DNA of 64,000 bases, from contig NZ_LISW01000007.1 in the NCBI RefSeq assembly GCF_001905735.1, positions 147,600-211,599 of the forward strand, read 5' to 3'. Both the position numbers and the translations under genes were made by a program. The notes below the pieces were generated by a model. That model saw only the letters and a program-made list of their open reading frames with translations. It was not told the DNA's origin and made no database searches. Below, in pieces: positions 10,028 through 28,976 of this stretch (the first letter of the stretch is position 1; each line of letters starts with the position of its first letter). The stretch is from Streptomyces sp. CB01249 (GTDB taxonomy: Bacteria > Actinomycetota > Actinomycetes > Streptomycetales > Streptomycetaceae).

Positions 10028-10063
10028 AGACTTCATGTCGACAGACCATCTACACTGATCCAC

Positions 10064-11470: not shown

Positions 11471-11592
11471 GCTGTGTGTGACGGGGCGCCCGAGGCAGGC
11501 CCCGCCGCGCTGAGCCTCAGCGTACGGGCGGGGGCCCGGGGGAAAGGGAAATTGGCGGAACTTGTCCGGGGGTGCGCCCTAGGGTGGGGTGC

Positions 11593-12036: not shown

Positions 12037-12058
12037 CGCCCGCGCGGGTCCGCGCCGG

Positions 12059-13228: not shown

Positions 13229-14205
13229 GGTGCGGTGGGCTCCTCTCGGCGGGCGAACGTCCAGGCGTCGGAGACGATTCCGGCCAGGTCGGCACGGGTC
13301 GGCTGCCAGCCGAGCCGTTCCCTGGCGGTGGCGGCGGAGGCGACGAGGACGGCCGGGTCACCGGCGCGGCGCGGGGCCGCGGTCTCGGGGACGGGGTGGC
13401 CGGTGACCTGGCGGACCGTCTCGATGACCTCGCGGACCGAGAAGCCGTTGCCGTTGCCGAGGTTGCAGATCAGGTGCTCGCCCGGGGTCGCGGCACCGAG
13501 GGCGAGCAGGTGCGCCTCGGCCAGGTCCGCGACGTGGATGTAGTCGCGGACGCAGGTGCCGTCCGGGGTCGGGTAGTCGTCGCCGTAGACGGAGATCGAC
13601 TCGCGCTGTCCCAGGGCGACCTGGAGGACCAGCGGGATGAGGTGGGACTCGGGGCTGTGGCGTTCGCCGAAGCCGCCGTACGCCCCGGCCACGTTGAAGT
13701 AGCGCAGCGAGACGGCGGCCAGGCCGTGGGCCGCGGCCTCCCCGGTGATCATGTGGTCGACGGCGAGCTTGGTCGCGCCGTACGGGCTGGTCGGGGCGGT
13801 GGGGTCGGTCTCCGTGATGGGGCTGGAGACCGGCTCGCCGTAGGTGGCCGCGGTGGAGGAGAAGACCAGGGTGCGGACTCCGGCGTCGCGCATCGCGGCG
13901 AGCAGGGCGGTGGAGCCGCCGACGTTGTTGAGCCAGTACTTCTCGGGGTCGGCGACGGACTCGCCGACCTGGGAGTACGCGGCGAAGTGGAGCACCCCGT
14001 CGTAGGAGGGGTCGAGCCACTTCGCGGCGTCCTGGACGCGGCCCTCGATGAAGTCGGCCCCGGCCGGGACGCCCTCGCGGAAGCCGGTGGAGAGGTCGTC
14101 CAGGACGGTGACGGTGTGGCCGGCCTCGATCAGGTGCTGGGCGACGACACTGCCCACGTAACCGGCGCCACCGGTGACCAGGTACTTCTTCGGGGTCTTG
14201 CTCAC
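13225..14205 (-). CDS. galE: UDP-glucose 4-epimerase
   Basis: NAD-dependent extended short-chain dehydrogenase that interconverts UDP-galactose and UDP-glucose. The 326-aa protein begins with the Rossmann motif [18 protein letters not shown]. It has the catalytic triad region [12 protein letters not shown] and [12 protein letters not shown] (Tyr and Lys), then the substrate segment [16 protein letters not shown]. The GTG start (14203-14205) overlaps the galT stop as GTGA, and the stop overlaps galK. It also supplies UDP-galactose for glycan synthesis, so an internal promoter is possible. The gal operon of S. lividans is known to have a second internal promoter. Confidence 0.97.
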
Positions 14206-15245
14206 TGGCTCGCTACCTCTCGCAGTCGCTGGGCCGCGGTCTCCGGCGGCACGTCGTTGATGAACACGCTCATGCCGGATTCGGAACCCGCGAGGAACTT
14301 CAGCTTGCCGGAGGTCCGTCGGATGGTGAAAAGCTCGAGGTGGAGCCCGAAGTCCTCACGTCCGGGGACCCCGAACGGTGCCTGGTGCCAGGCGGAGATG
14401 TACGGGGTCGGCGGCTCTCCGGGTCCGAAGATCCGGTCGAATCGCCTCAACAGTTCCAGATAGACCTGTGGGAACTCCGTGCGCGCCTCCTTGTCGAGCT
14501 CCCGCAGGTCGGCGACGCGGCGGCGCGGGTGGAGGTGCACCTCGTACGGCCAGTGGGCCGCGTACGGGACGAAGGCGATCCAGTGCTCGGCGGCGAGCAC
14601 GATCCGGGAGCCGTCCTCCTCCTCGCGGGCGACCACGTCGTCGAAGAGGTTGCGGCCGGTCTTCGCGTGGTGGGCGGCCATCGAGCGGAGCATCAGCTCG
14701 GTGCGCGGGGTGACGAAGGGGTAGCCGTAGATCTGGCCGTGCGGGTGGCCGAGCGTGACGCCGATCTCGGCGCCCCGGTTCTCGAAGCAGAACACCTGCT
14801 TGACCTGCGGGAGCCGGGCCAGGGCGGCGGTGCGGTCGGTCCAGGCGTCCAGGACGAGACCGGCCTGCTCCTCGGTGAGGTCCGCGAAGGAGGCGTCGTG
14901 GTCCGAGGTGAAGCAGACGACCTCGCAGCGGCCGGAGTCGCCGGCGAGCGAGGGGAAGCGGTTCTCGAAGACGGCGACCTCGTAGTCGGGCTCCGGGATC
15001 TCGCTCTGCCGGCCCTCGCGCGACGGGCACAGCGGGCACTCGTCGGCGGGCGGGTGGTAGGTCCGGCCCTGGCGGTGCGAGGCGATGGCCACGCTGTCGC
15101 CGAGCAGGGGATCGCGCCGGATCTCGGACGAGGTGGAGACGGCGTCGAGGGGGCGCGTGTCGACGGCCTCGCGCACGAGGTCGTCGCGGCTGTCGTAGTA
15201 GATCAGCTCCCGGCCGTCGGCGAGCGTCGTAACCGTCTTCTTCAC
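14202..15245 (-). CDS. galT: Galactose-1-phosphate uridylyltransferase
   Basis: Transfers UMP between UDP-glucose and galactose-1-phosphate. The 347-aa HIT-superfamily protein shows the zinc-type cysteine pair CPLCPS, the active-site triad [12 protein letters not shown], the [16 protein letters not shown] block, and the C-terminal HLELFTI strand. I chose GTG 15243-15245 (V-K-K-T-V-T-T) because GGGAGGA lies 6 nt upstream. The longer frame would start within the promoter. It is the first gene of galTEK and divergent from a sodium/solute symporter. Confidence 0.95.
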
Positions 15246-15264
15246 CAGACTCCTCCCACCAAAC

Positions 15265-15293
15265 ATAACCCAACACAATGAACCACAAGTCAA
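15265..15293 (-). promoter_or_regulatory. Putative galT promoter
   Basis: On the minus strand TTGACT (15288-15293) is followed, after 17 bp, by GGTTAT (15265-15270), about 20 nt before the GTG start. Between and around them short TTGTG/TGTTG repeats occur (TTGACTTGTGGTTCATTGTG). This recalls the repeat-rich galactose-inducible galP1 of S. lividans, but the exact correspondence was not checked. Confidence 0.5.
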
Positions 15294-15481
15294 CAGATGC
15301 GTCAATGAGTCGACGGCGGGGGCATACGGGCGGTGCGAGGAGGATCACGGCCGCTTGAAGGCTGTGATTTAGGCAATACGATCACAAACAAACAAAGAAC
15401 CTCATGGGAACTGTTCACTTTCCGAACACAAGAGCGTAGTTTCCTTCGGGTTCAGTTCGCGCAACGAAGCGAGACCCCCAC

Positions 15482-17152
15482 ATGCAATATCTGGCAGCAG
15501 GGCTCCGGCTCCCCACGAACGGGCTCGACTACACGATCCTGGCGATCTACTTCGTCGTCGTGCTCGGCATCGGCTTCGCCGCCCGGGCGAGTGTCAAGAC
15601 CAGCCTCGACTTCTTCCTCTCCGGACGGTCACTGCCCGCATGGGTGACCGGTCTGGCCTTCGTGGCGGCGAATCTCGGTGCCACCGAGATCCTCGGCATG
15701 GCGGCGACGGGCGCGCAGTACGGCGTCGCGGTGGTGCACTGGTACTGGATCGGCGCCATCCCCGCGATGGTCTTCCTCGGCCTCGTGATGATGCCGTTCT
15801 ACTACCGCTCGAAGGTGCGCTCGGTGCCGGAGTTCCTGCTCCAGCGCTTCGACAAGTCCGCGCACCTGCTGAGCTCCATACTCTTCGCCTTCTCGGCGAT
15901 CCTGATCGCGGGCGTCAACCTGTACGCCCTGTCGATCGTCGTGGAGGCGCTCCTCGGCTGGCCGCAGTGGGTCGCGATCGTCGTCGCGGGCCTCTTCGTC
16001 CTCGTCTACATCACGATCGGCGGGCTCTCCTCCGCGATCTACAACGAGGTGCTGCAGTTCTTCGTCATCCTCGCCGCGCTGATCCCGCTGACCCTGCTGG
16101 GCCTCAAGCGCGTCGGCGGCTGGGACGGGCTGAGCGATTCGCTGACGTCGAGTCACGGCTCGAACTTCATGTCGGCCTGGGGCGGCACCGGCATCGGTGA
16201 CGCCAACCCGCTCGGCGCCAACTGGCTGACGATCGTCCTCGGCCTCGGCTTCGTGCTCTCCTTCGGCTACTGGACGACGAACTTCGCCGAGGTGCAGCGC
16301 GCGCTGTCCGCGAAGAACCTCTCGGCCGCCCAGCGCACCCCGCTGATCGCCGCCTTCCCGAAGATGTTCATCGTCTTCGCCGTGATGATCCCGGGCCTGG
16401 TCGCCGCCGTGATCGTGCCGAACATCGGCACCGAGGGCTCCGGCACCACGTACAACGACGCGATCCCGCTGCTGATGCGCGAGCTGCTGCCCAACGGTGT
16501 GCTCGGCATCGCGGTGACCGGTCTGCTGGCCGCGTTCATGGCGGGCATGGCCGCCAACGTCTCCTCGTTCAACACCGTGTTCACCACGGACATCTGGGCG
16601 CGGTACGTGAAGAAGGACGAGTCGGACGCGTACTACCTGCGCTTCGGCCGGCTGATCACGGCGCTCGGCGTGCTGGCCTCCATCGGCACCGCGTTCATCG
16701 CCGCCAGCTTCTCGAACATCATGAGCTACCTCCAGACGCTCTTCTCGTTCTTCAACGTGCCGCTCTTCGTGGTCTTCATCATCGGCATGTTCTGGAAGCG
16801 CGCCTCGATGAAGTCCGGTGTCTGGGGCCTGCTCGCGGGCACCACGGCCGCGATGGTCAACTACTTCGTCATCTACAAGCAGGGCGTCATCGACATCCCG
16901 AGCGACCAGGGCGCCAACTTCGTCTCCGCGATCGTCGGCTTCGTCGCCGGCGCGGTCGTCATGATCGCGGTCACGCTCTTCACCGCTCCCAAGCCCGAGG
17001 CCGAACTCGCCGGTCTCGTCTACGGAACCGAGTCCCCGGGCGCCCCCGAGGTGCCCGAGGAGGGCGACAGCGCCTGGTACCGCAGGCCCGCACTCCTGGG
17101 CTGGGGAGCCATCGTGCTCGCCGCCCTGTGCTACGTCCCCTACTCGTTCTGA
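15482..17152 (+). CDS. Sodium:solute symporter (SSS family), probable galactose uptake
   Basis: A 556-aa integral-membrane transporter with about 14 hydrophobic segments. It carries SSS features: FLSGRSLPAWVTGLAFVAAN, NLGATEILGMAATGAQYG, an Arg-Ser-Val-Pro-Glu-Phe loop, ALSAKN after helix 7 and the SFNTVFTTDIW block near residue 365. Together these resemble the SGLT branch of Na+/sugar transporters. Divergence from galTEK over a shared 236-bp region makes galactose or a galactoside the best substrate guess; that is inference. The ATG at 15482 has only a weak purine stretch upstream. The small gene 15 bp downstream is probably co-transcribed. Confidence 0.9.
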   Translation: MQYLAAGLRLPTNGLDYTILAIYFVVVLGIGFAARASVKTSLDFFLSGRSLPAWVTGLAFVAANLGATEILGMAATGAQYGVAVVHWYWIGAIPAMVFLGLVMMPFYYRSKVRSVPEFLLQRFDKSAHLLSSILFAFSAILIAGVNLYALSIVVEALLGWPQWVAIVVAGLFVLVYITIGGLSSAIYNEVLQFFVILAALIPLTLLGLKRVGGWDGLSDSLTSSHGSNFMSAWGGTGIGDANPLGANWLTIVLGLGFVLSFGYWTTNFAEVQRALSAKNLSAAQRTPLIAAFPKMFIVFAVMIPGLVAAVIVPNIGTEGSGTTYNDAIPLLMRELLPNGVLGIAVTGLLAAFMAGMAANVSSFNTVFTTDIWARYVKKDESDAYYLRFGRLITALGVLASIGTAFIAASFSNIMSYLQTLFSFFNVPLFVVFIIGMFWKRASMKSGVWGLLAGTTAAMVNYFVIYKQGVIDIPSDQGANFVSAIVGFVAGAVVMIAVTLFTAPKPEAELAGLVYGTESPGAPEVPEEGDSAWYRRPALLGWGAIVLAALCYVPYSF

Positions 17153-17474: not shown

Positions 17475-17516
17475 GCAGGGGCCGGACACCGTCAGCCGAC
17501 GGGGTCCGGCCCCTGC
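17475..17516. terminator. Hairpin terminator, copy A of a duplicated 41-bp repeat
   Basis: A 13-bp perfect stem (GCAGGGGCCGGAC with GTCCGGCCCCTGC), one mismatch, then CCGTC/GACGG around an AGCC loop. It ends the symporter unit. The 41 bases 17475-17515 recur exactly at 24179-24219 on the other side of the Dap operon. Similarity continues outwards on both sides (TACG.CC before, CGCGT.CCCG after). Confidence 0.9.
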
Positions 17517-17541
17517 CGCGTTCCCGTGTCCCGGGCGCCCC

Positions 17542-17691
17542 GGAATTGTGAATTCCCTTTCAGGGCCGAATGTCATTCACCAATCAACCATTTCCACATA
17601 CTGGAATAAAGATTGATCGGGTCGTCATTTCGTGCCAGGATCCAGGACGGCCGAGCAGCGACGGGGGTCCCTCGGCCAGGGGGAGTACACA
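17542..17691 (+). promoter_or_regulatory. AT-rich upstream region of the Dap operon
   Basis: This stretch is much lower in GC than its surroundings. It contains two dyads, GGAATTGTGAATTCC (17542-17556) and GAATGTCATTC (17568-17578), and further down TTGATC with CAGGAT 17 bp later as a possible promoter. The dyads do not fit the Zur or iron-box patterns I know, so the regulator is unidentified. A good ribosome site, GGGGAG, lies at 17680-17685. Confidence 0.4.
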
Positions 17692-18678
17692 GTGATAGCA
17701 GAAGAAGTCTATGACCTGGTGCTGGACGACGTCTTCGTCCGGCTCGACCAATTAGTTCCCGGCAGCATCCTCTACCTCAAGCTGGAAGGCCTCAATCCAG
17801 CGGGCTCGGTCAAACTCAAGACCGCGGTCGCCCTGGTCCGTGACGCGGAGGAGCAGGCCGAGAAATCGCGGCGCACCTTTCCGCGGACCCGGCTCATCGA
17901 ATCGACATCAGGAAACCTCGGCGTCGCCCTCGCCATGGTGTGCGCGGCCAAGGGGTACGCGCTCACCTGCGTCACGGACCCGAATGCCAACCGCCAGTCG
18001 CTCCAGCTGATGCGGGCGCTCGGCGCGGAGGTCGTCGTCATCGACGCCCCCGACGCCAACGGCGGCTTCCTCCAGTCGCGGATCAACTACATCAGGCGGC
18101 GGCTGCGCCGTGAGCCGCACACCCACTGGCTGAACCAGTACGCCAACCCCGCGGGCCCCGCCGCACACCGGGACCGCACCGGGCGGGCCATCGTCGAGCA
18201 CATCGGCCACCCGGACTTCGTCTTCGTCGGCGCGGGCACCACGGGCACGCTGATGGGCTGCGCGGCCTACCTGCGCGCACACAGCCCGCGGACCCGCATC
18301 GTCGCCGTCGACACCGTGGGGTCGGTCACCTTCGGCACCCCGGCCGCCCCGCGCCACATCCCGGGCCTGGGCACCAGCCGGCGGCCCGAGATCCTCGACC
18401 CGACGCTGGTGGACGACCTCGTCCTCGTTCCCGAGCCGGAGGCCGTCGCCATGTGCCGCTCCCTCGCCAGGGAACGCGGTCTGCTCTTCGGCGGATCGAC
18501 CGGGACGGTGCTCGCCGCCGTACAGAAAGCGGCGAAAGACATTCCGGAGGGGAGCACGGTGGTGGCCCTCTCACCCGATTTCGGCGACCGCTATCTCGAC
18601 ACCCTTTACGACGACCCATGGGTGACGGAGCGCTGGCCCGACACGAACAACGGAACAATGCCTCGGGCTCAGGCCTGA
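17692..18678 (+). CDS. SbnA-like PLP enzyme, N-(2-amino-2-carboxyethyl)-L-glutamate synthase family
   Basis: Fold-type II PLP enzyme (cysteine-synthase superfamily, 328 aa). By the SbnA model it joins O-phospho-L-serine and L-glutamate into N-(2-amino-2-carboxyethyl)-glutamate. Visible motifs are LNPAGSVKLKTA with the PLP lysine, ESTSGNLGVALAMVCAAKG, the phosphate-binding GAGTTGTLMG, and LLFGGSTGTVLAA. The GTG at 17692 follows GGGGAG. It is first in a five-gene operon, with an SbnB-like gene 12 bp downstream, which strongly supports Dap synthesis over ordinary cysteine synthesis. A TTA leucine codon at 17752-17754 (codon 21) implies dependence on the bldA tRNA. Confidence 0.88.
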   Translation: MIAEEVYDLVLDDVFVRLDQLVPGSILYLKLEGLNPAGSVKLKTAVALVRDAEEQAEKSRRTFPRTRLIESTSGNLGVALAMVCAAKGYALTCVTDPNANRQSLQLMRALGAEVVVIDAPDANGGFLQSRINYIRRRLRREPHTHWLNQYANPAGPAAHRDRTGRAIVEHIGHPDFVFVGAGTTGTLMGCAAYLRAHSPRTRIVAVDTVGSVTFGTPAAPRHIPGLGTSRRPEILDPTLVDDLVLVPEPEAVAMCRSLARERGLLFGGSTGTVLAAVQKAAKDIPEGSTVVALSPDFGDRYLDTLYDDPWVTERWPDTNNGTMPRAQA

Positions 18679-18690
18679 CAAGGGGGAGAA

Positions 18691-19692
18691 ATGTTCGACT
18701 TCGACATTGTCACCGGTAAGGCCGTTCAGGAGATCCTGCGGAATTCCCGGACCTCGGTGCTCGACATCGTGGAACGCGCCTATCTGGCGCACGAACGGGG
18801 TGACTCGGTCAACCCCGACAGCTATTTCCTGCGCTTCCCCGACAAGCCCGACTCGCGGATCATCGCGCTGCCCGCCTTCCTCGGCGACGACGTCCAGCTC
18901 GCCGGTATCAAGTGGATCGCCAGCTTCCCCCGGAACACCGCCTCCGGTCTGCCCCGGGCGGCTGCGGTCCTCGTGCTCAACGACTACGAGACCGGCTATC
19001 CGGTCGCCTGCATGGAGGCCGCGGGGATCAGCGCGGCGCGCACCGCCGCTTCGGCCGCCGTCGCCGCCCGTACGCTGCGGCCCGACGGGCACCGGGGCAC
19101 CACGGTCGCCGTCGTCGGCGGCGGAGTCATCGCCCGCAACATCTGCGACTACCTGCACGCCTCGGGATGCGACCCGGACGCGTATCTGGTGCACGACATC
19201 CACGAGCCGTCCGGCCAGGCGCTCGCCGATCACATCCGCGTCACGCAGGGCCGCACCGCGTCCTTCACCGCGGACCTCGACACCGCCCTCGCGGCCGACA
19301 CGGTCGTGTTCGCCACGACGGCGCTCGAACCGTACGTCACCCGGCCGTTCGCGGCGGGTCAGGTGGTCCTCAACATCTCGCTGCGGGACCTGACGCCCGA
19401 GGTCGTCCTGGGCGCGGAGAACATCCTGGACGACGTCGACCACTGCCTGAAGGCCAACACCTCGCCGCATCTGGCCGAACAGCTCTCCGGCTCCCGCTCC
19501 TTCGTCACCGGGACCCTCGCGGCCGTGCTGAACGGCGAGGTCACCCCGGACCCCGCCCGGCCGGTGATCTTCTCGCCCTTCGGGCTCGGGGTCCTCGACC
19601 TGGCCGTCGGCACCCATGTCCTCACCCAGGCGCGCGCCGACGGCACGGCGCTGGCGGTGCCGGACTTCTTCGGGGAGACCAGCCGATGGTGA
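18691..19692 (+). CDS. SbnB-like dehydrogenase, 2,3-diaminopropionate formation
   Basis: Ornithine-cyclodeaminase/mu-crystallin superfamily, 333 aa. By the SbnB model it oxidatively cleaves the SbnA product with NAD+ to L-2,3-diaminopropionate plus 2-oxoglutarate. Motifs include the N-terminal substrate lobe FLGDDVQLAGIKWIASFPRN, the dinucleotide-binding TVAVVGGGVIARNICDYL near residue 145, and ILDDVDHCLKANTSPHLAEQ. It starts 12 bp after the previous gene behind GGGGGAG and overlaps the next gene by 7 bp. Pairing with the SbnA-like gene is the diagnostic evidence. Confidence 0.9.
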   Translation: MFDFDIVTGKAVQEILRNSRTSVLDIVERAYLAHERGDSVNPDSYFLRFPDKPDSRIIALPAFLGDDVQLAGIKWIASFPRNTASGLPRAAAVLVLNDYETGYPVACMEAAGISAARTAASAAVAARTLRPDGHRGTTVAVVGGGVIARNICDYLHASGCDPDAYLVHDIHEPSGQALADHIRVTQGRTASFTADLDTALAADTVVFATTALEPYVTRPFAAGQVVLNISLRDLTPEVVLGAENILDDVDHCLKANTSPHLAEQLSGSRSFVTGTLAAVLNGEVTPDPARPVIFSPFGLGVLDLAVGTHVLTQARADGTALAVPDFFGETSRW

Positions 19693-21665
19693 CGACCGCA
19701 CAGGAACCCTCCACCGCACCGGCGTCCGCCGCGATCATAGGCCTCGGCCCGCGCGGTCTCGGCGTCCTGGAACGGCTGACCGCCCACGCCCTCGCGACCC
19801 CGACCCCCCTCGTCGTGCACCTGGTGGACCCGGGCACCGAGGGACCCGGATTCCACCGCCCCGACGAGCCCGACCACCTGCTGCTCAACACCGTCTGCGC
19901 CCAGGTGACGGCGTTCGCGGACGCGGACATGGTGGACGGTCCCGTCCCCCTCACCGGACCCTCGCTGCACGACTGGTGCCTCCGGCGCGATCTGCGCCTG
20001 GACGAGGACGGCTTCACCGTGCGGCCGGGGCGCGGCCGGGAGATCAGGCCCAACGACTTCCTGCCGCGCAGGCTGCTGAGCGAGTACCTGGCCTGGGCCG
20101 CGCGCCGGATCATGGACGCCGTCCCCGGCCACCTGACCCTCGTACGGCACACGACGACAGCGGTCGACGTGGTCACCGGGACCGGCGGCAACGGGCCGGA
20201 GCAGCGCGAGACGGTGGTCCTCGCCGACGGCGGCCGCATCGCCGCGGACGCCGTCTTCGTCACCGTCGGCCACCACTCCCTCCACCTGCCCCCGCCGCCC
20301 GCCGAGGCGCCCCGGTCGGTCGGCCGCCCGTATCCCCTGCCCGGGGCGCTCGACGCCGTCGCCCCCGGGGACCGGGTCGCCGTGCTGGGCACGGGCCTGA
20401 CGGCGATGGACGTGATCGCGACGCTCACCGTGGGGCGCGGCGGCCGGCACGTCCGCGACGGGGACCGGCTGCGCTACGAACGCAGCCGGCGCGAACCGCT
20501 GATCGTGCTGGCCAACCGGTCCGGGCTGCCCGCCCGGAGCAGGCCGTATCTCCACCCCGGACGGGTCCGCCCCGCCCCGCTCGCGCTGACCGGGGAACGC
20601 CTGTCCGCGCTGCGCGCACGGCGGCCGGGCGGCCGGCTGTCCTTCATCCGGGACGTCCGGCCCCTCGTCGTCGCCGAGATGGAACTCGCCTGGTACCGCA
20701 CCCTGCTCGCCCGCGACCTGGGCGGCCGGACCCCGGACACGGCCCGGGCCGCCGCCCGACTCGCCGACGAGGCAAGCGGGTCGGGGTACGAAGGAGTCCT
20801 CGCCGGTTTACGGGAGCGCTTCGGCCCGAACCCGGTCGCCGGGCTGCTGAACGGCGCACCGGCCACCTCCGACGACCTCGGCGGCGCACCCGCGACCTGG
20901 CCGGACCAGCGCGCGTACACCGCGTACTTCACCGCCGAGGTGGAGCACGACCTCGGCGAGGCGCGCGCGGGTCTCGGTGTCAGCCCGCTGAAGGAGGCCC
21001 TGGAGGTCCTGCGCGACCACCGCGACGCGCTCCGCGCCGTCGTGGACGCGCCGGGCCTGGACGACGAGTCGGCGGCGTACTTCTTCGGCACCTTCGCCCC
21101 GCTGGTCAACCGTCTGGTGATAGGCCCGCAGCTCGACCGCTCCGCCGAACTCCTCTCGCTGCTCGCCGCGGGCGTGCTGCGGCTGGGGCCGGGCCCCGGT
21201 CCCAAGGTGATCCCGCCCCTCGGCGGGGGCGGCCCCTGGCAGCTGGAGTCGACCCTGCTCGACGCGCACACCGTCGTGGACGTCGATCACGTGGTGCACG
21301 CCCATGTGACCGAGCCCGTGGCGGAGCGGGTCACCGGCTCGCTGCTGAGCCGCCTGGTCCGGTCCGGCCGCGCCCGGACCCGTACCGCCGGCGGGACCCC
21401 GCTGCCCGGTCTGGACGTCAACCGGAGCGGCCAGGGCATCGCCCGGACGGGCGCGGTCCAGTCCCGGCTGTTCTTCCTGGGGCCCCACACGGAGGGGTCC
21501 AGCTACTACAACCACTACGTCCCCTCCCCCGGCACCCCGTCGCGTGCGCTGCTGGACGCGGAGCTGGCCCTCACCACGGCCCTGCCGCAGCTGCGGGGCG
21601 TCCCGACCCTCCACCGCACCCCCGCCGCGGCCGGGGCGGCCCCGTCCGACGAGAGGAACCGATGA
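19686..21665 (+). CDS. Large FAD/NAD(P)-binding enzyme, possible N-oxygenase
   Basis: A 659-aa protein with two dinucleotide motifs: IIGLGPRGLGVLERL near residue 18 and VAVLGTGLTAMDVIATL near 235. FRHP-like loop HRPDEPDHLLLNT and GPHTEGSSYYNHYVPSPG near the C-terminus are also seen. This layout fits the NAD_binding_9-type flavoproteins. I recall that amino-acid N-oxygenases of the CreE/FzmM kind are of similar size and type, so oxidation of a Dap amino group is a plausible role, but it is inference. The ATG overlaps the SbnB-like gene by 7 bp, with GGGGAG upstream. TTA at 20808-20810 (codon 375) is a second bldA-type codon in the operon. Confidence 0.75.
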   Translation: MVTTAQEPSTAPASAAIIGLGPRGLGVLERLTAHALATPTPLVVHLVDPGTEGPGFHRPDEPDHLLLNTVCAQVTAFADADMVDGPVPLTGPSLHDWCLRRDLRLDEDGFTVRPGRGREIRPNDFLPRRLLSEYLAWAARRIMDAVPGHLTLVRHTTTAVDVVTGTGGNGPEQRETVVLADGGRIAADAVFVTVGHHSLHLPPPPAEAPRSVGRPYPLPGALDAVAPGDRVAVLGTGLTAMDVIATLTVGRGGRHVRDGDRLRYERSRREPLIVLANRSGLPARSRPYLHPGRVRPAPLALTGERLSALRARRPGGRLSFIRDVRPLVVAEMELAWYRTLLARDLGGRTPDTARAAARLADEASGSGYEGVLAGLRERFGPNPVAGLLNGAPATSDDLGGAPATWPDQRAYTAYFTAEVEHDLGEARAGLGVSPLKEALEVLRDHRDALRAVVDAPGLDDESAAYFFGTFAPLVNRLVIGPQLDRSAELLSLLAAGVLRLGPGPGPKVIPPLGGGGPWQLESTLLDAHTVVDVDHVVHAHVTEPVAERVTGSLLSRLVRSGRARTRTAGGTPLPGLDVNRSGQGIARTGAVQSRLFFLGPHTEGSSYYNHYVPSPGTPSRALLDAELALTTALPQLRGVPTLHRTPAAAGAAPSDERNR

Positions 21666-22864
21666 ACAACCGCGAGAAGTACACGCCCTGGACGCACACG
21701 TACCACGTGGAGACCCGGGCCGCGCAGGGCGACGGCTGGCGCTCCCCCACCACCGGGGCCGTGCCGCCCGCCATCAGCATGGGCGCCACCTACGCCAGGG
21801 ACAGCGAGTACCGCACCCCGGCGGGCCTGGCCTACCTGCGCGACCAGGGGGCTCCCGGGTACGAACAGGTCGAGGACGTGGTGGCCGGGCTGGAGGGCGG
21901 CTCGCGCGGCCTGCTCTTCTCGTCCGGGATGGCCGCCGCGACCGCCGTCTTCCAGGTGCTGCCCGCCGGCTCCCGGGTCGTGGTGCCCCGGACGATGTAC
22001 TTCGGGCTCACCAAGTGGCTCCTGGAGTTCGGTACGGAGCAGGGCCTCGAAGTGGTCCAGGTGCCCATGGACGACCTGGACGCGGTCGCCGCCGCGGTGG
22101 CCGCCGCCCCCACCCGCCTGGTGTGGGCGGAGTCCCCCGCGAACCCCACCTGGACGGTGACGGACCTCGCGGCGGTGGGCGCGGTGGCGCGCGAGGCCGG
22201 AGCCCTGTTCGGCGTGGACAACACGGTGCCCACGCCCGTCCACTCCCGCCCGTTCGAGCTCGGTGCCGACCTCGTCATGCACTCCGGCACCAAGTACCTC
22301 AACGGCCACACCGACGTGGTGGCCGGTCTGCTCGTGCTGGCCCCGGACCCGGGCGAGCGGGCGGCCGCCCTGTGGGAGCGGCTGGAACTGCACCGCAGGC
22401 TGACCGGGCCCATGCTCGGGCCGCTGGAGACCTATCTGCTGATGCGCGGCATACGCACGCTGTTCCCGCGCATGCGTCAGATCTCGGCCACCGCCATGGC
22501 GCTCGCCGAGCACTTCGCCGGCCATCCGCTGATCCGCAAGGTCGCCTATCCGGGGCTGCCCGACGACCCGGGCCACGCCATCGCCGCACGTCAGATGAGT
22601 GACGGGTTCAGTGGCATGCTCTCCCTGCACGTGGCCGGGGAGTGGCAGCGCTCCCTGCGCACCGCCCAGCACTGCGAGTTGTTCATTCGCGCCACTTCCC
22701 TCGGCGGAGTGGAGAGCCTGATCGAACACCGCTATACCTTCGAGGGCCCGGGCAGCACGTCCCCCAAGGACATGCTGCGCGTCTCGGTCGGCCTGGAGAA
22801 TCCCGCGGACCTCGTCGCCGACCTCGAACAGGCCCTGGAGCGGGCCGCGAAGGAAGACCGTTGA
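21662..22864 (+). CDS. Cys/Met-metabolism PLP enzyme (cystathionine synthase/lyase family)
   Basis: Fold-type I PLP enzyme of 400 aa, the usual length. Motifs include YEQVEDVVAGLEGGSRGLLF with FSSGMAAATAVF (phosphate cup), WAESPANPTWTVTDL, GVDNTVPTPVHSRPFELGAD and the PLP-lysine segment VMHSGTKYLNGHTDVVAG. The family performs beta- or gamma-elimination and replacement. In this operon it could eliminate or replace the modified beta-nitrogen group of a Dap derivative, or add a thiol, but the reaction cannot be read from sequence. ATGA overlap with the flavoenzyme gene and TTGA overlap with the transporter show tight coupling. Confidence 0.85.
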   Translation: MNNREKYTPWTHTYHVETRAAQGDGWRSPTTGAVPPAISMGATYARDSEYRTPAGLAYLRDQGAPGYEQVEDVVAGLEGGSRGLLFSSGMAAATAVFQVLPAGSRVVVPRTMYFGLTKWLLEFGTEQGLEVVQVPMDDLDAVAAAVAAAPTRLVWAESPANPTWTVTDLAAVGAVAREAGALFGVDNTVPTPVHSRPFELGADLVMHSGTKYLNGHTDVVAGLLVLAPDPGERAAALWERLELHRRLTGPMLGPLETYLLMRGIRTLFPRMRQISATAMALAEHFAGHPLIRKVAYPGLPDDPGHAIAARQMSDGFSGMLSLHVAGEWQRSLRTAQHCELFIRATSLGGVESLIEHRYTFEGPGSTSPKDMLRVSVGLENPADLVADLEQALERAAKEDR

Positions 22865-24153
22865 GCTCTGAGACCCACACCCCCCACCCCCCGGCGGCCG
22901 ACCCGTCCGCCGGGGGCGCCCCCGCGGACCCCGGCGGGGCACCCCCGGCGGAGGACTCCGCCGGACACCGGCCCGGCCTCTGGCGGGACGCGTCCCTCTC
23001 GGCCGTCCTCGCGGGCTTCATCGCCGTCGTGGTCTCCTACTCCGGGCCCCTGGTCATCGTGCTGGCGGCGGCGTCGGCCGGTCATCTGACCACCGGCCAG
23101 ACCAGCTCCTGGGTCTGGGCCATCTCCATCGGCTCCGGCCTGACCTGCGTCGGGCTCAGTCTGCGGACCCGGATGCCGGTCATCACCGCCTGGTCGACGC
23201 CCGGCGCCGCCCTGCTGGTCACCAGCCTCGGCGCGTACTCCTACGGGGAGGCCGTCGGCGCGTTCCTGGTCACCGGGGTCGTGATCACCCTCGTCGGGCT
23301 GACCGGGGTCTTCGGGCGGCTGATGCGCCATGTGCCGTCGGCGGTGGTCTCCGCGATGCTCGCCGGGATCCTGTTCTCCTTCGGGACCGGGGTGTTCACC
23401 TCGCTCACCTCCGCGCCGTACATCGGCGGGGCGGTGCTTGTGGCCTATCTGCTCGGCAAGCGGATGTTCCCCCGGTACGCCGTGCTGGCCGCGCTGGCGG
23501 CCGGTGTGGTGGCCGCGGCGGCCACCTCGCGCCTGCACGTGCACCTGGACGGCGTCGGCCTGGCCACCCCGGTCCTGACCACGCCGCACTTCTCCGTGGC
23601 CTCCCTGATCGGCATCGCGGTACCGCTGACCCTGGCGACGCTCGGCTCGCAGAACGCGCCCGGGATCGGGGTGCTCACGGCCGCCGGATACCGCCCGGAC
23701 GACCGGCTGCTCATCGGCTCCACCGGGCTGGTCTCGACCCTGCTGGCGCCGTTCGGCTCGCACGCGATCAACCTGGCCGCCATCACGGCCGCGATCTGCA
23801 CCGGTCCGGAGGCCCACCAGGACACCCGGCGCCGGTACGTCGCCGGTGTGTCCTGCGGGGCGTTCTACCTGCTGATCGGCCTGTTCGGCTCCACGCTGGT
23901 GGTGCTGTTCGCGGGGCTGCCCAAGGAGCTCATCGCGGCGACGGCGGGCGTCGCCCTCTTCGGCGCGCTGGCGGGCGGGCTGACCGGGGCCATGACCGAG
24001 GAGAAGGACCGCGAGGCCGCCCTCATCACCTTCCTCGCCACCGCATCCGGGATCACCCTGCACGGGATCGGATCGGCGTTCTGGGGCCTGCTGTTCGGCA
24101 TGGTCACGCACCTCGTCCTGACCCGCCTGCGCCGCCCCGCCCCGGCGGCCTGA
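22861..24153 (+). CDS. BenE-family (benzoate:H+ symporter-like) transporter
   Basis: A 430-aa integral-membrane protein with about 12 hydrophobic segments after a 40-residue Pro/Ala-rich cytoplasmic N-terminus. Features match BenE/NCS2-like permeases: FIAVVVSYSGPLVIVLAAA, SIGSGLTCVGLSLRTRMPV, AWSTPGAALLVTSL and PLTLATLGSQNAPGIGVL. I chose the TTG start (22861-22863) because AAGGAAG is correctly spaced and TTGA overlaps the previous stop. Alternatives would need a much longer N-terminus. As the last gene of a Dap-type operon it probably moves the pathway product or a precursor. Benzoate itself is not implied. Confidence 0.82.
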   Translation: MSSETHTPHPPAADPSAGGAPADPGGAPPAEDSAGHRPGLWRDASLSAVLAGFIAVVVSYSGPLVIVLAAASAGHLTTGQTSSWVWAISIGSGLTCVGLSLRTRMPVITAWSTPGAALLVTSLGAYSYGEAVGAFLVTGVVITLVGLTGVFGRLMRHVPSAVVSAMLAGILFSFGTGVFTSLTSAPYIGGAVLVAYLLGKRMFPRYAVLAALAAGVVAAAATSRLHVHLDGVGLATPVLTTPHFSVASLIGIAVPLTLATLGSQNAPGIGVLTAAGYRPDDRLLIGSTGLVSTLLAPFGSHAINLAAITAAICTGPEAHQDTRRRYVAGVSCGAFYLLIGLFGSTLVVLFAGLPKELIAATAGVALFGALAGGLTGAMTEEKDREAALITFLATASGITLHGIGSAFWGLLFGMVTHLVLTRLRRPAPAA

Positions 24154-24178: not shown

Positions 24179-24219
24179 GCAGGGGCCGGACACCGTCAGC
24201 CGACGGGGTCCGGCCCCTG
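24179..24219. terminator. Hairpin terminator, copy B of the duplicated 41-bp repeat
   Basis: Identical over 41 bases to 17475-17515. The 12-bp outer stem and inner CCGTC/GACGG pairing are kept. It lies between the convergent BenE-type gene and the LuxR gene. The LuxR stop codon (TCA, 24196-24198) is inside the hairpin, so the repeat encodes the last seven residues (QGPDPVG) of that regulator. Confidence 0.9.
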
Positions 24220-24888
24220 GCGCGTCCCCGCCGCCCGGTCCAGCAGCCCGGTCCGGGCGGCCAGCGCGGCGGCCTCCAGACGGGAGCCGACGCCGAGCTT
24301 CATCAGGACGCGCTGGACGTGCGTACGCGCGGTGCTCGGCGCGATCCGCATCCCGGCCGCGATCAGCCGGGTGTCCTCGCCCTCCGCGACCCGGACCAGC
24401 ACCTCGACCTCGCGCGGGGTGAGCAGCCGCAGCAGCCGGCGGCCCTCGTCGTCCGGCTGGGCCACCGGGTCGAGCAGTTCGGCGAAGGCGCCCTGGAGGA
24501 GCTGGGGTGCGATCGCCGCCTCCCCGGCCCTGGCCTTCGCCATGGCGCGCTCCACGCCCTCGATCCGCTCGTCGTGCCGGACGTACCCGGCGGCCCCGGC
24601 CGCGAAGGCGGCGGCGATCCCGCGTGGGCTGGGGACCGGGCCGAGCACGACCACCGCGGTCTGCGGGCGCTCGCGCCGGATCCGGACGACGGGGTCGAAG
24701 GTGCCGGGCACGGCGGGCGAGGCGGTGCCGAACAGGCAGACCTCGGGGGCCCGTCCGACGACGAGGTCCGCCGCCCCGGCGGTGGGCGCGGCGGCGGCCA
24801 GCACCCGGTGGCCGCGCAGTTTCAGTGCCGAGGCCAGCGCCTCGGCGAGCAGTCGGTGGTCGTCCACCACCATCAGCCGGACACCCAT
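24196..24888 (-). CDS. Orphan LuxR-type regulator with degenerate receiver domain
   Basis: A 230-aa regulator. The N-terminal half looks like a receiver (VRLMVVDDHRLLAEALASAL) but at the usual phospho-acceptor position it reads EVCLFGTASPAV, with no Asp, so ordinary phosphorylation is unlikely. The C-terminal LuxR helix-turn-helix is LTPREVEVLVRVAEGED, then IAPSTARTHVQRVLMKLGVG. The ATG at 24886-24888 follows a G-rich stretch. The open frame extends upstream to 24996 but would overlap a terminator palindrome. It is a relative of the LuxR protein at 10646-11470. No kinase is nearby, and its target could be the adjacent Dap operon. Confidence 0.85.
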   Translation of the reverse strand: MGVRLMVVDDHRLLAEALASALKLRGHRVLAAAAPTAGAADLVVGRAPEVCLFGTASPAVPGTFDPVVRIRRERPQTAVVVLGPVPSPRGIAAAFAAGAAGYVRHDERIEGVERAMAKARAGEAAIAPQLLQGAFAELLDPVAQPDDEGRRLLRLLTPREVEVLVRVAEGEDTRLIAAGMRIAPSTARTHVQRVLMKLGVGSRLEAAALAARTGLLDRAAGTRQGPDPVG

Positions 24889-25009: not shown

Positions 25010-26896
25010 TCAGCTGGTGTGGAAGGACACCACCAGGTACTCCTTCTCGTCCAGCGAGCTCTTGCGCGGGGCGCTGATCATCGTCTCGGAGATGAAGAAC
25101 CGCCCCTGTTCGTAGCGGAACTCCGCGTAGTCCGGGGTGAAGCTGGTCTCCGCGTCCCGGACGGCCTTGTCGGCCGGGTTGCGCATCAGGACGGTCTGCT
25201 TGAAGGTGCTGCCGTCGATGGAGACGACCTCACCGCCCTTGTCGTACGGGGGTTCCCGGTACGCGATGATGTTGGTGCCGTCCATGCGCAGCGGGAACAT
25301 CGTGAACTTCTCGCCCGCGTCGGCCCGGTCGCCGGTCTGCTTGCCGGTGGTGAGGTCGAAGGAGACGATCTCGTTGGTCCGGCTGAAGCTCTCGCCGGTG
25401 CCCTCGTGCTCCTCGGTCGGCAGGTAGATGCGGTTGTTGCCGACGGCGAGGTGCTGGCACTGCTCGACCTCGGTGGAGCCGCACCTGGCGGCGTACTTCT
25501 CGGCGTCGGCGGAGATCCGGATCTTCAGCTTGCCGGTGGTCTCGTCGATCGAGAAGAAGTCCGAGATGCTGCTGCCGTCGCCGGCGGTGTCGCCGACGTC
25601 GGCGGCGACGACGAGCGGCTTGGTGGAGACGATGCTCGCGTAGTCGACACCGGCCGGCATCTTGTACGAGGAGAGCGGGGCGCCCGTCGTCGGGTTCAGC
25701 GCCTGGATGACGAGCTGCGGGTCGTCGTACGTACCGCACTTGCGGACGGTGGCCAGGGCCTCGCCGCCGCCGTAGCCGAGGTCGTAGCAGCCGTCGGTGC
25801 TGACCTTCGGCTTCCAGAGCTCGGCGCCGTCGGCCAGCTTGAAGGCGGCGCCGCCGTCGAGGCCGCCGGCGGCGACCGTGCTGCCGCTGAGGGTGACCTC
25901 GGTGAAGCGGACGGGGCGGTCACCACCGGTGGAGGCGGTGATCGACTTGTTCCACAGCAGCTTGCCGGTGGCCAGGTCGAGGGCGCCGACCTGGGTGCAG
26001 GTCTGGTACTTCTTGGCCTTCGTGCGCTTGGCCTCCTCGAAGAGGATGGCGGTCTTGAAGTCCTTGGTCATGTGCCGGGAGGCCCCGCACACCTGGCCGT
26101 CCAGCGGGATCGACCACGCCTTCTTGCCCGTGTCCAGGTCGTAGCCGACGACCTCGTTGACGCCCGACTTCACGTACACCTTGTCGGTGACCCAGGAGCC
26201 GTCGACGGACGTGACGTCGGTGACCTTGGGCTGCGGGAGCTGGAAGCCGACGGCCGAGTCGACGTTGGCCGGGGCCTTCTCCTTGCCGCCGGTGGAGCCC
26301 CCGTTCCCGCCGTCGTCGCCCTTGCCGCCCTTGTTCTCGCCGGAGGTGCCGGCGGAGGTGCCCGCCTCGTCCTTCTTGTCGTCCCCGCCGCTGGAGGCGT
26401 ACCAGATGCCACCGCCGATGATCAGGGCGACCGCGACCACGGCCGCGACGATGATCTGGGCCTGGGTGGAGAACTTCTTCCCGCCCCCGCCCTGCGGCGG
26501 CGTCGGGTAGGCAGGCTGCATCGGGGCGGTCGGGTAGCCGTACGGCTGCTGCTGGCCCTGCTGCGGGAAGCCGTAGCCGGGCTGGGTGGGGGGCTGCTGC
26601 GGCTGGCCCTGCGGGAAGCCGTAACCGGGCTGCGTGGGCGGCTGCTGCGGCTGGCCCTGCGGGAAGCCGTAGCCCGGCTGGGTCGGCGGCTGCTGCGGCT
26701 GACCCTGCGGATAGCCGTAGCCCGGCTCCGTGGGCGGCTGCTGGGGCGGGCCGGGGGGCGGCGGCGGGGTCGGGGCGCCGAAGCCACCGGAGGGCGGGTC
26801 CTGCGGGGCGCCGAATCCGCCGGGCGGCGGGTCCTGCGGCGCGCCGAATCCGCCCTGGGGCGGGTCGTGGGGCGGCTGCTGGGGCGGCTGGGTCAT
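25010..26896 (-). CDS. Membrane-anchored PQQ-like beta-propeller protein, paralog 1
   Basis: A 628-aa protein with three parts. Residues 1-135 are a Pro/Gln/Gly/Tyr-rich cytoplasmic region with 16-residue tandem repeats (PGYGFPQGQPQQPPTQ). Then comes one membrane helix, AQIIVAAVVAVALIIGGGIWYA, and an external domain of about 440 residues. That domain has PQQ/BamB-like blades such as YDLDTGKKAWSIPLDG, ALDLATGKLLWNKSI and SFDLTTGKQTGDRAD. This is a type II membrane topology, with no signal peptidase site. It is the most distal of three consecutive paralogs on this strand. Function is unknown; envelope scaffolding or ligand sensing is possible. Confidence 0.82.
   Translation of the reverse strand: MTQPPQQPPHDPPQGGFGAPQDPPPGGFGAPQDPPSGGFGAPTPPPPPGPPQQPPTEPGYGYPQGQPQQPPTQPGYGFPQGQPQQPPTQPGYGFPQGQPQQPPTQPGYGFPQQGQQQPYGYPTAPMQPAYPTPPQGGGGKKFSTQAQIIVAAVVAVALIIGGGIWYASSGGDDKKDEAGTSAGTSGENKGGKGDDGGNGGSTGGKEKAPANVDSAVGFQLPQPKVTDVTSVDGSWVTDKVYVKSGVNEVVGYDLDTGKKAWSIPLDGQVCGASRHMTKDFKTAILFEEAKRTKAKKYQTCTQVGALDLATGKLLWNKSITASTGGDRPVRFTEVTLSGSTVAAGGLDGGAAFKLADGAELWKPKVSTDGCYDLGYGGGEALATVRKCGTYDDPQLVIQALNPTTGAPLSSYKMPAGVDYASIVSTKPLVVAADVGDTAGDGSSISDFFSIDETTGKLKIRISADAEKYAARCGSTEVEQCQHLAVGNNRIYLPTEEHEGTGESFSRTNEIVSFDLTTGKQTGDRADAGEKFTMFPLRMDGTNIIAYREPPYDKGGEVVSIDGSTFKQTVLMRNPADKAVRDAETSFTPDYAEFRYEQGRFFISETMISAPRKSSLDEKEYLVVSFHTS
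26569..26737 (-). repeat. 48-bp in-gene tandem repeat (Pro/Gln-rich)
   Basis: About three and a half copies of a 48-bp unit encode PGYG[FY]PQGQPQQPPTQ in the N-terminal region of the first propeller protein. The copies differ mostly at synonymous positions, so slippage or unequal exchange in coding DNA explains them. Confidence 0.8.
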
Positions 26897-26954: not shown

Positions 26955-28829
26955 TCAGTTGCCGAAGGCCATCATGGTCTTCGTCTCCAGCTCTTCCTTG
27001 TCGTTGCTCGCGCTGACCCGCCCGCTCGTGATGAACGAACGCCCGTCCACGTACCGGATCTTCGGGTTGTAGAAGGAGCGCTCGATCTCCGAGGTGGAGT
27101 CCGGGTGCTTGAGGATCATCTTCGGGGTGCCGCCGGCCGGGGAGAGGGTGGCGATGCCGCCGCCCTTGCTGTAGCCGCCCTCGACGTAGAGCAGGATGTT
27201 GCCGCCCTCCATGCCGAGCGGCTTCATGGTCTCCTCGGCGGGCGAGTCGGCCTTCCACTTCGTCTTGCCGGTGTTCAGGTTGAACGCGACGACCTTGTTG
27301 GTGCGGGCGGAGCCGCTGGTGTCGTCCGACGTGGACATGTAGAAGGTGTTGGCGTCGGCCGCGACACCGGTGCAGTCCTGGAGCTGCTGTCCGAAGATGG
27401 AGAAGCCGCCGCCGCACTGCGGGGAGAACTTGTCGCCCTTGTCACTCTGTATCTGGGAGCGCAGCGAGCCGTTCTCGCGGAGCGCGATGACGCTCCACTT
27501 CTTGTCGTCGCTGTCGCCCTTGGTGAGGGAGACGATGAGCGGGGAGACCGAGTAGACCTTGTCGACCTGCCAGCCGAGGGCCGGCTTGTAGGTCCACTTC
27601 GCCTTGCCGGTGTTGGGGTCGATCTCCTCGATCTCGTTCTGCGGGTTGTCGAAGTCGTTGGTACGGCAGTTGACCGCGGCGATGAGCTTGGCGCCGCCGG
27701 CGAAGGCGAACGGCTCGCAGTTGCCGCCCCGCTTGCCGAAGACCTCCTTGCCGTCGCTGACCCGGTAGCCGTTGCCCGTGCCGGTGCGGCCGGCCGTGAC
27801 GGTGTCGCCGCTGATGGCCATGGAGAGGTCGGACATCATGTCGAAGAGGCCGCTCTTCTTGACCTCCTTCTTCCATCCGGCCTTGCCCGTGTTGAGGTCG
27901 ATCTGCTGGAGGGCGGAGCAGTCGGCCTTGTCGGTGGTGCCGTTCTTGATCGCGATGACGATCTTGCCGTCGGTGGTGGTCTGCTCGGGCGCGGAGCAGA
28001 TGTCGGCGGGCAGCTTGAGCGTCCACTTCTGCTTGCCGTCGGCGACCGAGTAGCCGGAGACCGTGCGGTACATGCCCTTGACGATGGTGTCGCCGACGAT
28101 CCAGGGGCCGTAGACGGTCGCGCCGTTGCGCGGGAGGTCGATGTCGTTCTTCTGCAGCCAGAGGACCTTGGCCTCGCCGTCCTTGCGGCCGCTGTTGAGG
28201 TCGTCGTCCTCCTCCCGGCCGGTGCCGTTGCCGTCGCCCTGGTCGACGGTGGGGGACACGGACGGCTTCGTGACCTGCTCGCTCTTCTTGGCGACCGGCT
28301 TGTCGTCGTCGCCGTCGCCGCCGCTCGTCGCGAAGTACACGCCGCCGCCGATGACCAGGAGCGCGACGACCGCGGCCCCGATGATCATGGCCGGCTTGCG
28401 CTTGAACGGGTTGCCGCCGCCGGAGCCGTTCGGTCCGGGCGGCACGGGCGCGCCCGGGTGCTGCTGCGGCGGGAAGCCGTAACCGGCCTGCGGCTGCTGG
28501 CCGTACGGACCCGGCTGCGGCTGCCCGTACGGGCCGGGCTGCTGCTGGGTGTACGGGCCCGGCTGCGGCTGACCGTAAGGGCCGGGCTGCTGCGGCTGGC
28601 CGTAGGGACCCGGCTGCTGCGGCTTGTCGTACGGACCGGGCTGCTGCGGGTAGCCGTAGCCCGGCTGCGTGGGCGGCGGGGTCGGCGGCGCGGCGGGGGC
28701 CTGGGGCGGCGCGGCGGGCGGCGGCGGGGTCTGCGGCGGGCCCTGGGGCGGCTGCGGTACCCCGTGCGGCGGCTCCTGCGGAGCGCCGAAGCCTCCCTGC
28801 GGCGGTTGCTGTCCGGGCGGCTGGGTCAT
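26955..28829 (-). CDS. Membrane-anchored PQQ-like beta-propeller protein, paralog 2
   Basis: A 624-aa paralog with the same layout. The Pro-rich cytoplasmic N-terminus has short GPYGQPQQP-type repeats. A membrane helix, AMIIGAAVVALLVIGGGVYFA, is followed by an external propeller with blades such as YSVADGKQKWTLKLP, IDLNTGKAGWKKEVK, IDPNTGKAKWTYKP and FNLNTGKTKWKADSP. The ATG at 28829 begins MTQPPGQQPPQ and follows a GGGGGA stretch. The longer open frame to 28940 is not needed. The gap to paralog 1 is 58 bp. A motif shared with paralog 3 lies upstream. Confidence 0.85.
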   Translation of the reverse strand: MTQPPGQQPPQGGFGAPQEPPHGVPQPPQGPPQTPPPPAAPPQAPAAPPTPPPTQPGYGYPQQPGPYDKPQQPGPYGQPQQPGPYGQPQPGPYTQQQPGPYGQPQPGPYGQQPQAGYGFPPQQHPGAPVPPGPNGSGGGNPFKRKPAMIIGAAVVALLVIGGGVYFATSGGDGDDDKPVAKKSEQVTKPSVSPTVDQGDGNGTGREEDDDLNSGRKDGEAKVLWLQKNDIDLPRNGATVYGPWIVGDTIVKGMYRTVSGYSVADGKQKWTLKLPADICSAPEQTTTDGKIVIAIKNGTTDKADCSALQQIDLNTGKAGWKKEVKKSGLFDMMSDLSMAISGDTVTAGRTGTGNGYRVSDGKEVFGKRGGNCEPFAFAGGAKLIAAVNCRTNDFDNPQNEIEEIDPNTGKAKWTYKPALGWQVDKVYSVSPLIVSLTKGDSDDKKWSVIALRENGSLRSQIQSDKGDKFSPQCGGGFSIFGQQLQDCTGVAADANTFYMSTSDDTSGSARTNKVVAFNLNTGKTKWKADSPAEETMKPLGMEGGNILLYVEGGYSKGGGIATLSPAGGTPKMILKHPDSTSEIERSFYNPKIRYVDGRSFITSGRVSASNDKEELETKTMMAFGN

Positions 28830-28976
28830 CAGCACGTCCCCCTTCGTGCGGTCCGGTGCCCGTTCCGGACTCCCCCGCGATCCCGCCCGGCCCGGGGGCA
28901 AGACCCCCCGGACCACGACGGAATGGAGCGAATCGGGCATGGATCCCGCAGTGTCACGTCAGTCGAGCGGGACTTC

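Follow-up and report, generated by a model that had tools for sequence, protein, structure and literature searches.

A five-gene Streptomyces island predicted to make an N-oxidised diaminopropionate amino acid

Within a 64,000-nucleotide stretch of the genome of Streptomyces sp. CB01249 (contig NZ_LISW01000007.1, positions 147,600 to 211,599; hereafter the window), positions 17692-24153 hold a compact operon of five genes, here named A to E, all on the plus strand. The first two encode the SbnA/SbnB pair for L-2,3-diaminopropionate (L-Dap), and the third encodes, as this analysis newly recognises, a protein related to L-aspartate N-hydroxylase in which the substrate chamber is altered. Our preferred reading, to which we assign a probability of about 0.62, is that these genes form a self-contained, free-standing route to an N-oxidised Dap amino acid, comprising Dap synthesis and the action of C on L-Dap. 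The reactions and the product of the island are what we infer from its genes.

An earlier sequence-only reading had described five coupled genes at this place, without a nonribosomal peptide synthetase (NRPS), siderophore synthetase, ligase or carrier protein. All five open reading frames were found, a protein-family search recovered the SbnA, SbnB, NAD_binding_9, Cys/Met pyridoxal phosphate (PLP) and BenE families, and Pfam shows none of the above domains among the five. The Dap pair and the non-NRPS character thus stand, and a small modified amino acid together with its transport remains the best guess. What had been missed is the nature of the flavoprotein, and since this enzyme decides the chemistry, we now predict N-oxidised Dap as the class of product. 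Also missed were the existence of several architectures that share an SbnA-SbnB-flavoprotein core, of which the five genes are one, and the fact that the island is a self-contained insertion.

Genes A and B are predicted to form an L-Dap synthesis pair

SbnA and SbnB constitute a two-step route from O-phosphoserine and glutamate to L-Dap, known from staphyloferrin B and also from viomycin, zwittermicin and dapdiamide. Gene A (17692-18678, GTG start, 328 amino acids) corresponds to SbnA, the N-(1-amino-1-carboxy-2-ethyl)-glutamate synthase of this route, and scores 398.7 bits against TIGR03945, for which the equivalog cut-off is 349.95. Its best matches in the PDB are the S. aureus SbnA structures 5d84-5d87. 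Gene B (18691-19692, ATG start, 333 amino acids) corresponds to SbnB, which releases L-Dap in an NAD-dependent manner; it reaches 389.2 bits against TIGR03944 (equivalog cut-off 326.9), and its best PDB match is 4m54. In its own genome, A is the only gene that exceeds the TIGR03945 cut-off, and no gene did so in any of 14 control genomes. The equivalog scores and the genome-wide control agree that this is a genuine L-Dap pair, as had been proposed, and rule out that A is an ordinary cysteine synthase and B an ornithine cyclodeaminase.

The five genes are tightly packed, with a gap of 12 bp between A and B and overlaps of 7 bp between B and C, 4 bp between C and D, and 4 bp between D and E. The third-position GC content of B to E is coding-like (0.92-0.96); that of A is 0.87, its start being called too far upstream. 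Foreign base composition was considered as a sign of transfer and dropped, as the values for B to E compare with 0.94-0.98 in the neighbouring genes.

Gene C encodes a relative of L-aspartate N-hydroxylase

Gene C (19686-21665, ATG start, 659 amino acids) encodes a predicted class B flavin N-hydroxylase with L-Dap as its likely substrate. The protein matches the Pfam family NAD_binding_9 (PF13454, 109.4 bits versus 21.8), and its sole distinct match in the PDB with an E value of at most 1 is 8cp2 (E 3.2e-51), the structure reported for the L-aspartate N-hydroxylase from Streptomyces sp. V2 (PMC10404684). An AlphaFold2 model of C, based on an alignment of 33 sequences (mean predicted local distance difference test score 87.2, predicted template modelling score 0.88), matched 8cp2 in Foldseek with an E value of 8.8e-47, and its comparison with 8cp2_A (VIA) gave a Z score of 35.8 at 3.1 Å over 574/600 residues. 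The next structural entry reached a Z score of 19.1, and ornithine and lysine N-hydroxylases scored about 15-17.6. Judged by this model, C is related to L-aspartate N-hydroxylase over its full length and has the three-domain fold of the class B N-hydroxylating monooxygenases. CreE, FzmM and the Streptomyces sp. V2 enzyme 8cp2 belong to the L-aspartate N-hydroxylase (nitrosuccinate synthase) group; C is a member of this family by fold, and not by its substrate residues.

According to the 8cp2 report (PMC10404684), the aspartate entry chamber comprises Arg13, Arg276, Asn413, Arg416 and Arg577, the enzyme carries out three successive oxidations that lead to a nitro compound, and the N413E variant still oxidises NADPH but yields no detectable hydroxylated aspartate. 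C keeps the flavin adenine dinucleotide (FAD) motif, the catalytic Asn62 (N68), Arg13, Arg266 (R286), Arg409 (R443), Arg412 (R446) and Arg416 (R450), and carries replacements at three 8cp2 positions, namely Asp447 for Asn413, Tyr608 for Val571 and Ser614 for Arg577.

At positions 413 and 577, the residues differ with the genomic context of the homologues. For the 79 homologues with SbnA/SbnB linkage, the residue at 413 is Asp in 50, Glu in 26, Asn in two and His in one, thus acidic in 76/79, whereas the 17 unlinked homologues have Asn in 12, Asp in three, and Glu and Thr in one each. Position 577 is Ser in 76 of the 79 linked rows and Arg in 13/17 unlinked ones. The catalytic Asn62 is retained in 78/79 linked rows, the remaining row having a gap there, and Arg266, Arg409 and Arg412 are retained in all 79. 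The 12 unlinked rows with Asn (L120-L131) and the linked rows L113-L119 came from a separate genus search, and five rows were dropped before counting, one because it was too short (L082, 274 amino acids) and L007, L009, L014 and L088 as duplicates or self. A tree of 97 rows separated the 79 linked homologues together with L010, L036 and L062 from 8cp2 and 14 unlinked homologues with an SH-aLRT (Shimodaira-Hasegawa-like approximate likelihood ratio test) value of 97, although it was made with a quick method that gave long-branch warnings, so that its root and long branches are unsure.

The SbnA-SbnB-flavoprotein core occurs in several architectures

A scan of 84,980 species genomes, for which two peptide patterns were used (one being EG[SA][SCT]YYNH), yielded 72 loci with a homologue of C. 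SbnA and SbnB were found in the locus of 68 of them, presence being a match inside the fetched locus (SbnA >200 bits, SbnB >90 bits) and not strict adjacency. The four exceptions are L027, which is without SbnA on a contig that starts 4 kb upstream, L036, L042 with a weak SbnB match, and L062 with short remnants. In L036 (4579-12498), an SbnA-like domain is fused to an ATP-grasp amino-acid ligase, and a gene with a tRNA editing domain (tRNA_SAD) adjoins the flavoprotein gene, which perhaps provides self-protection against a mischarged amino-acid mimic.

The full order A-B-C-D-E recurs in 14 of the 72 loci, in eight groups of surroundings, and most of these 14 have no further gene families in common near the island. 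The neighbourhood survey that had been suggested returned the same set in the same order in other genomes, which argues that the five genes are no chance neighbourhood. Among 121 Streptomyces genomes, a D homologue of at least 81% identity and a C homologue of at least 62% occur in an identical set of seven, including our own, with the two genes side by side; in the six others, parts of A, B and E were seen.

Other loci combine the triad of SbnA, SbnB and C with different partners, counted here when within 9 kb. A lysine N6-hydroxylase gene is present in 22/72 loci, in 21 of which genes for a methionyl-tRNA synthetase (MetRS)-like protein, a cupin and a D-amino-acid-oxidase-like protein lie alongside; these are L044 (2496-7922) and 20 more loci from Pseudomonas and the Burkholderia group. 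As described in PMC11705231, the MetRS-like protein, cupin and lysine N-hydroxylase form a known hydrazine-synthetase kit, and its presence beside the triad suggests a Dap-containing compound with an N-N bond. A NodU-like carbamoyltransferase gene occurs in ten loci, in seven of which a gene for the large subunit of carbamoyl-phosphate synthase lies alongside. The combination of the triad with carbamoyl-phosphate synthase and a NodU-type carbamoyltransferase was seen in L035, L037, L041, L075, L080, L082 and L083; L037, when scanned, also showed an NRPS module and a thioesterase, and in L071 from Paraburkholderia fungorum a carbamoyltransferase match occurs together with the hydrazine-synthetase kit at the same triad locus.

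A sulfotransferase gene, together with adenylylsulfate (APS)-kinase-like and ATP-grasp genes, is found in three loci. The match to Sulfotransfer_5 on which this is based exceeds the cut-off of 23.2 in L034 (34.5) and is just below it in L033 (21.9) and L042 (21.5). In these loci (about 9000-17100), the triad is accompanied by a 260-residue sulfotransferase, an APS-kinase-like protein and an ATP-grasp amino-acid ligase, and L034 additionally has PAPS_reduct and GTPase genes; an O-sulfated N-hydroxy-Dap dipeptide is a possible product of this type. A lactate-permease-like transporter gene was found in 22/72 loci, a GST-like gene (glutathione S-transferase) in 16/72 and a HAD (haloacid dehalogenase) gene in 6/72. 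In L031, L032 and L059 this transporter is the only one of the partners searched for that accompanies the triad, and there the flavoprotein product itself may be exported. The SbnA-SbnB-C triad would thus be a portable N-hydroxy-Dap module.

Genes D and E

Gene D (21662-22864, ATG start, 400 amino acids) encodes a Cys/Met-metabolism PLP enzyme resembling cystathionine gamma-synthases and gamma-lyases (PF01053, 313.6 bits versus 27). Lyases that catalyse beta- or gamma-elimination belong to the same family. None of the 25 NCBIfam models listed, out of 49 that matched, scored above its equivalog cut-off, the best being PRK07811 with 307.9 versus 513 bits. The motifs SGTKY with the PLP lysine, VDNT, SLGGVESL with its Glu and LRVSVGLE with the substrate Arg are kept; compared with cystathionine gamma-lyase 6k1n, the NPT segment is replaced by A/T-P-G and the HPxxMTH loop is shortened. 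The genome has three other members of the Cys/Met family, at 39-44% identity to D, so that D is not a household enzyme by default. Across the five-gene loci, D is at least 79% identical in 13/14 and 69% in L030, always follows C, and is more conserved than C. A kinship of D with canavanine gamma-lyase, for which 9gj9, 9hde and 9hee were the presumed entries, was dropped; for the C-terminal 65 residues of D, the fungal Cys/Met enzyme 9uuw and cystathionine enzymes are equal or better matches than these three entries.

Gene E (22861-24153, 430 amino acids) encodes a BenE-family H+-coupled transporter and scores 399.2 bits against TIGR00843, well above the cut-off of 203.4. Its TTG start was our choice, made from the overlap with the stop codon of D. 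E follows D in 14/72 loci, and a second BenE gene lies elsewhere in the same genome. In L035 and L041, a BenE gene 60-62% identical to E stands at the end of the carbamoyltransferase-type operon, which hints at a Dap-derived cargo for E.

The island is a discrete insertion

The operon is bounded by a direct repeat of 60 nt, of which the two copies are 92% identical and 6704 nt apart. Both form hairpins, the upstream copy (17475-17534) folding to -41 kcal/mol (z -5.9) and the downstream copy (24179-24238) to -38.2 kcal/mol (z -4.7). Between the upstream hairpin and A, the sole non-coding DNA is the leader or promoter stretch at 17535-17691 on the plus strand. Outside the repeats lie, upstream, a sodium-solute symporter gene with a small partner gene and, downstream, a gene for a LuxR-type regulator on the opposite strand. 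In 13 of 18 relatives that have the upstream genes, the small gene and the LuxR gene occur in one stretch, so that these convergent flanks adjoin, with 26-389 bp between the matched ends in 12 relatives and 1014 bp in one; no LuxR gene match was found in the fetched stretch of the remaining five. SbnA was absent from the insertion site in all 18. The island is therefore a discrete 6.7-kb insertion of five genes and their leader, and that the moved unit consists of just these argues that the five genes suffice for function.

In two relatives, L090 and L091, one similar hairpin lies between the two flanking genes, as judged by eye, and relative G023 has an empty site here and a C-D pair elsewhere in its chromosome. 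The sequence TTCTGC occurs at least about 120 bases before A in 12/15 aligned five-gene rows, the exceptions being the window copy, L026 and L030, and no conserved leader element common to the other five-gene loci was recognised in the window copy. Further downstream, the window contains genes for three tandem paralogous PQQ_2 beta-propeller proteins on the minus strand (25010-26896, 26955-28940 and 29071-30783).

Proposed pathway

In the pathway that we propose, SbnA would join O-phosphoserine and glutamate, and SbnB would release L-Dap, a step that family assignment makes almost certain. C would then use FAD, NADPH and O2 to hydroxylate L-Dap, most likely at N3, and we consider hydroxylation of L-Dap by C to be probable. 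In 8cp2, a sulfate at the arginine cluster coincides with the position of aspartate's side-chain carboxylate. In C, the kept arginines (8cp2 Arg266, Arg409, Arg412 and Arg416) would grip the single carboxylate of Dap, Asp447, which replaces Asn413, would pair with the alpha-ammonium group, and the lost Arg577 would match the absent second carboxylate. The beta-nitrogen of Dap would thereby be placed where the nitrogen of aspartate is oxidised, and this arrangement predicts N3 hydroxylation. N3-hydroxy-L-Dap is slightly favoured over a nitro compound as the product of C, because the carbamoyltransferases and sulfotransferases of the other locus types need a nucleophile such as a hydroxyl group.

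The later steps are less certain. D might use N3-hydroxy-Dap in place of cysteine and attach to it the four carbons of an activated homoserine, so that N-hydroxy-aza-cystathionine or its isomer with an N-O link would result. Such a gamma-replacement is the most natural proposal for D because the nucleophilic nitrogen of N3-hydroxy-Dap stands where cysteine has its sulfur; that D conjugates N3-hydroxy-Dap is nonetheless a tentative suggestion. To our knowledge, amino acids of this class are not known from nature. E would finally export the product, to which we give an even chance. A broader scheme, in which each cluster type caps the N-OH group of N3-hydroxy-L-Dap, be it with a carbamoyl group, a sulfo group or an N-N bond, and here with an aminocarboxypropyl group added by D as aza-cystathionine synthase, is attractive but on balance unlikely.

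Several observations weigh against this interpretation. Three linked homologues break the rule at position 413, L070 and L076 with Asn and L068 with His, and four of the 17 unlinked homologues have Asp or Glu there (L010, L011, L036 and L062, the last of which keeps SbnA/SbnB remnants). L070 and L076 also have Thr at position 13 and Cys at position 416, so that their substrate chamber is altered in these places as well. Columns 571 and 577 were partly selected by the pattern EG[SA][SCT]YYNH, position 413 lying outside the patterns. Other intermediates may be the substrates of the carbamoyl- and sulfotransferases. The sequence of D fixes neither donor nor reaction, and its homologue in L035, L041 and L083 is about 40% identical with normal NPT and HPxxMTH segments, resembling an ordinary cystathionine enzyme; in view of these features and its divergent placement, we rejected counting it as D. 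BenE is known for benzoate uptake, and E may hence transport in either direction. Finally, by analogy with the parent enzyme, which oxidises three times to the nitro stage, a hydroxylamine product of C would not be assured.

Alternative explanations

In a rival scheme, the island is a source of nitrite (HNO2), C oxidising Dap to 3-nitroalanine and D releasing nitrite, pyruvate and ammonia by beta-elimination. The three oxidations to a nitro compound reported for the closest characterised relative of C (PMC10404684) are in line with this, as are the eliminating lyases in the family of D and its retained catalytic motifs. However, the island contains no nitrite-using gene, most five-gene loci have no surrounding families in common across their eight context groups, nitrite release needs no dedicated membrane transporter, and the group-transfer partners of the other types point to a hydroxyl group, so that we regard a nitrite source as rather improbable.

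It is also conceivable that D only degrades, detoxifies, racemises or trims N-hydroxy-Dap and that the product of C is itself an exported antimetabolite. L031, L032 and L059, where the lactate-permease-like transporter alone among the partners searched for accompanies the triad, indicate that a pathway can end with the product of C, but the conservation of D, at least 79% in 13/14 loci, above that of C and always after it, suits a biosynthetic step better, and we consider this quite improbable. That the island feeds a larger pathway encoded elsewhere, such as one to an alanosine-like diazeniumdiolate, a hydroxamate siderophore or a peptide, seems very unlikely. Alanosine clusters draw on Dap and contain homologues of CreE and CreD (PMC11705231 and PMC7347517), and other locus types carry NRPS or hydrazine-synthetase-type genes. 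Yet the island is a discrete 6.7-kb insertion that has no common partner in eight different surroundings, and the Dap flavoprotein of alanosine is described in the same two sources as an acyl-CoA-dehydrogenase type that acts on a carrier. That C is an ordinary L-aspartate N-hydroxylase beside Dap genes by chance would fit its fold and sequence family but can practically be dismissed, given Asp for Asn413 and Ser for Arg577, the reported inactivity of N413E on aspartate (PMC10404684), the position of C opposite 8cp2 in the tree, the SbnA/SbnB linkage in 68/72 loci, and the lack of a CreD-family lyase among the five genes in Pfam.

Implications

If the preferred reading, a free-standing route to an N-oxidised Dap amino acid, is true, a large branch of the flavin N-hydroxylases so far associated with aspartate is adapted to a diamino acid, and a single pocket residue (413), of which the effect on aspartate has already been measured, reads out this branch. 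It would also provide a marker with which amino-acid pathways of the N-O and N-N kind could be found beyond NRPS clusters, in genera such as Streptomyces, Pseudomonas and Burkholderia, and so suggest that many bacteria make nitrogen-oxygen amino acids of a still uncharted group. The five genes would be a small self-contained set that can be transferred to a laboratory host for a direct test.

Comparison with known systems

No published pathway that matches the five genes one-to-one, and no N-hydroxy-Dap enzyme of the family of C, was found among the titles and abstracts that searches of the open-licence PubMed Central literature listed, in line with the earlier view that the cluster has no recognised product. 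L-Aspartate N-hydroxylase resembles C in the whole fold, the FAD motif, the catalytic Asn62 and most of the arginine cluster, but C differs at Asn413 and Arg577, and its genomic partner is SbnA/SbnB instead of a nitrosuccinate lyase; the CreD-type lyase (Lyase_1) of the aspartate-nitrosuccinate pathway is absent from the five genes and from the nine neighbouring genes scanned. With staphyloferrin B and the other SbnA/SbnB systems, the island shares both genes over their equivalog cut-offs, adjacent and in the same order. It differs in having no siderophore synthetase, NRPS or amide ligase (among the five genes, none is an NRPS-independent siderophore synthetase like those of the staphyloferrin B cluster), and in that Dap would, by our prediction, undergo N-oxidation as a free amino acid.

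The L-alanosine cluster (aln/ala) combines Dap with N-oxidation as well and, according to PMC7347517, carries a member of the same flavoprotein family, AlnM. There, this member is described as the aspartate enzyme that serves nitrite formation, whereas carrier-bound Dap is oxidised by a flavoprotein of another class (PMC7347517). The island has no carrier, cupin or lyase, and neither the carrier-protein domain nor that of the acyl-CoA-dehydrogenase-like AlnG was found among the five genes, which the search covered. D shares its fold family and the motifs with the catalytic Lys and the substrate Arg and Glu with the cystathionine gamma-synthase/gamma-lyase family, and differs from it in the NPT segment, the HPxxMTH loop and its NCBIfam scores below the cut-offs. 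E exceeds the family cut-off of the BenE benzoate/H+ symporters, but its operon context is amino-acid biosynthesis. Taken together, the operon combines known kinds of enzyme, a Dap synthase and a seemingly re-specified member of the aspartate N-hydroxylase family, with two conserved last genes.

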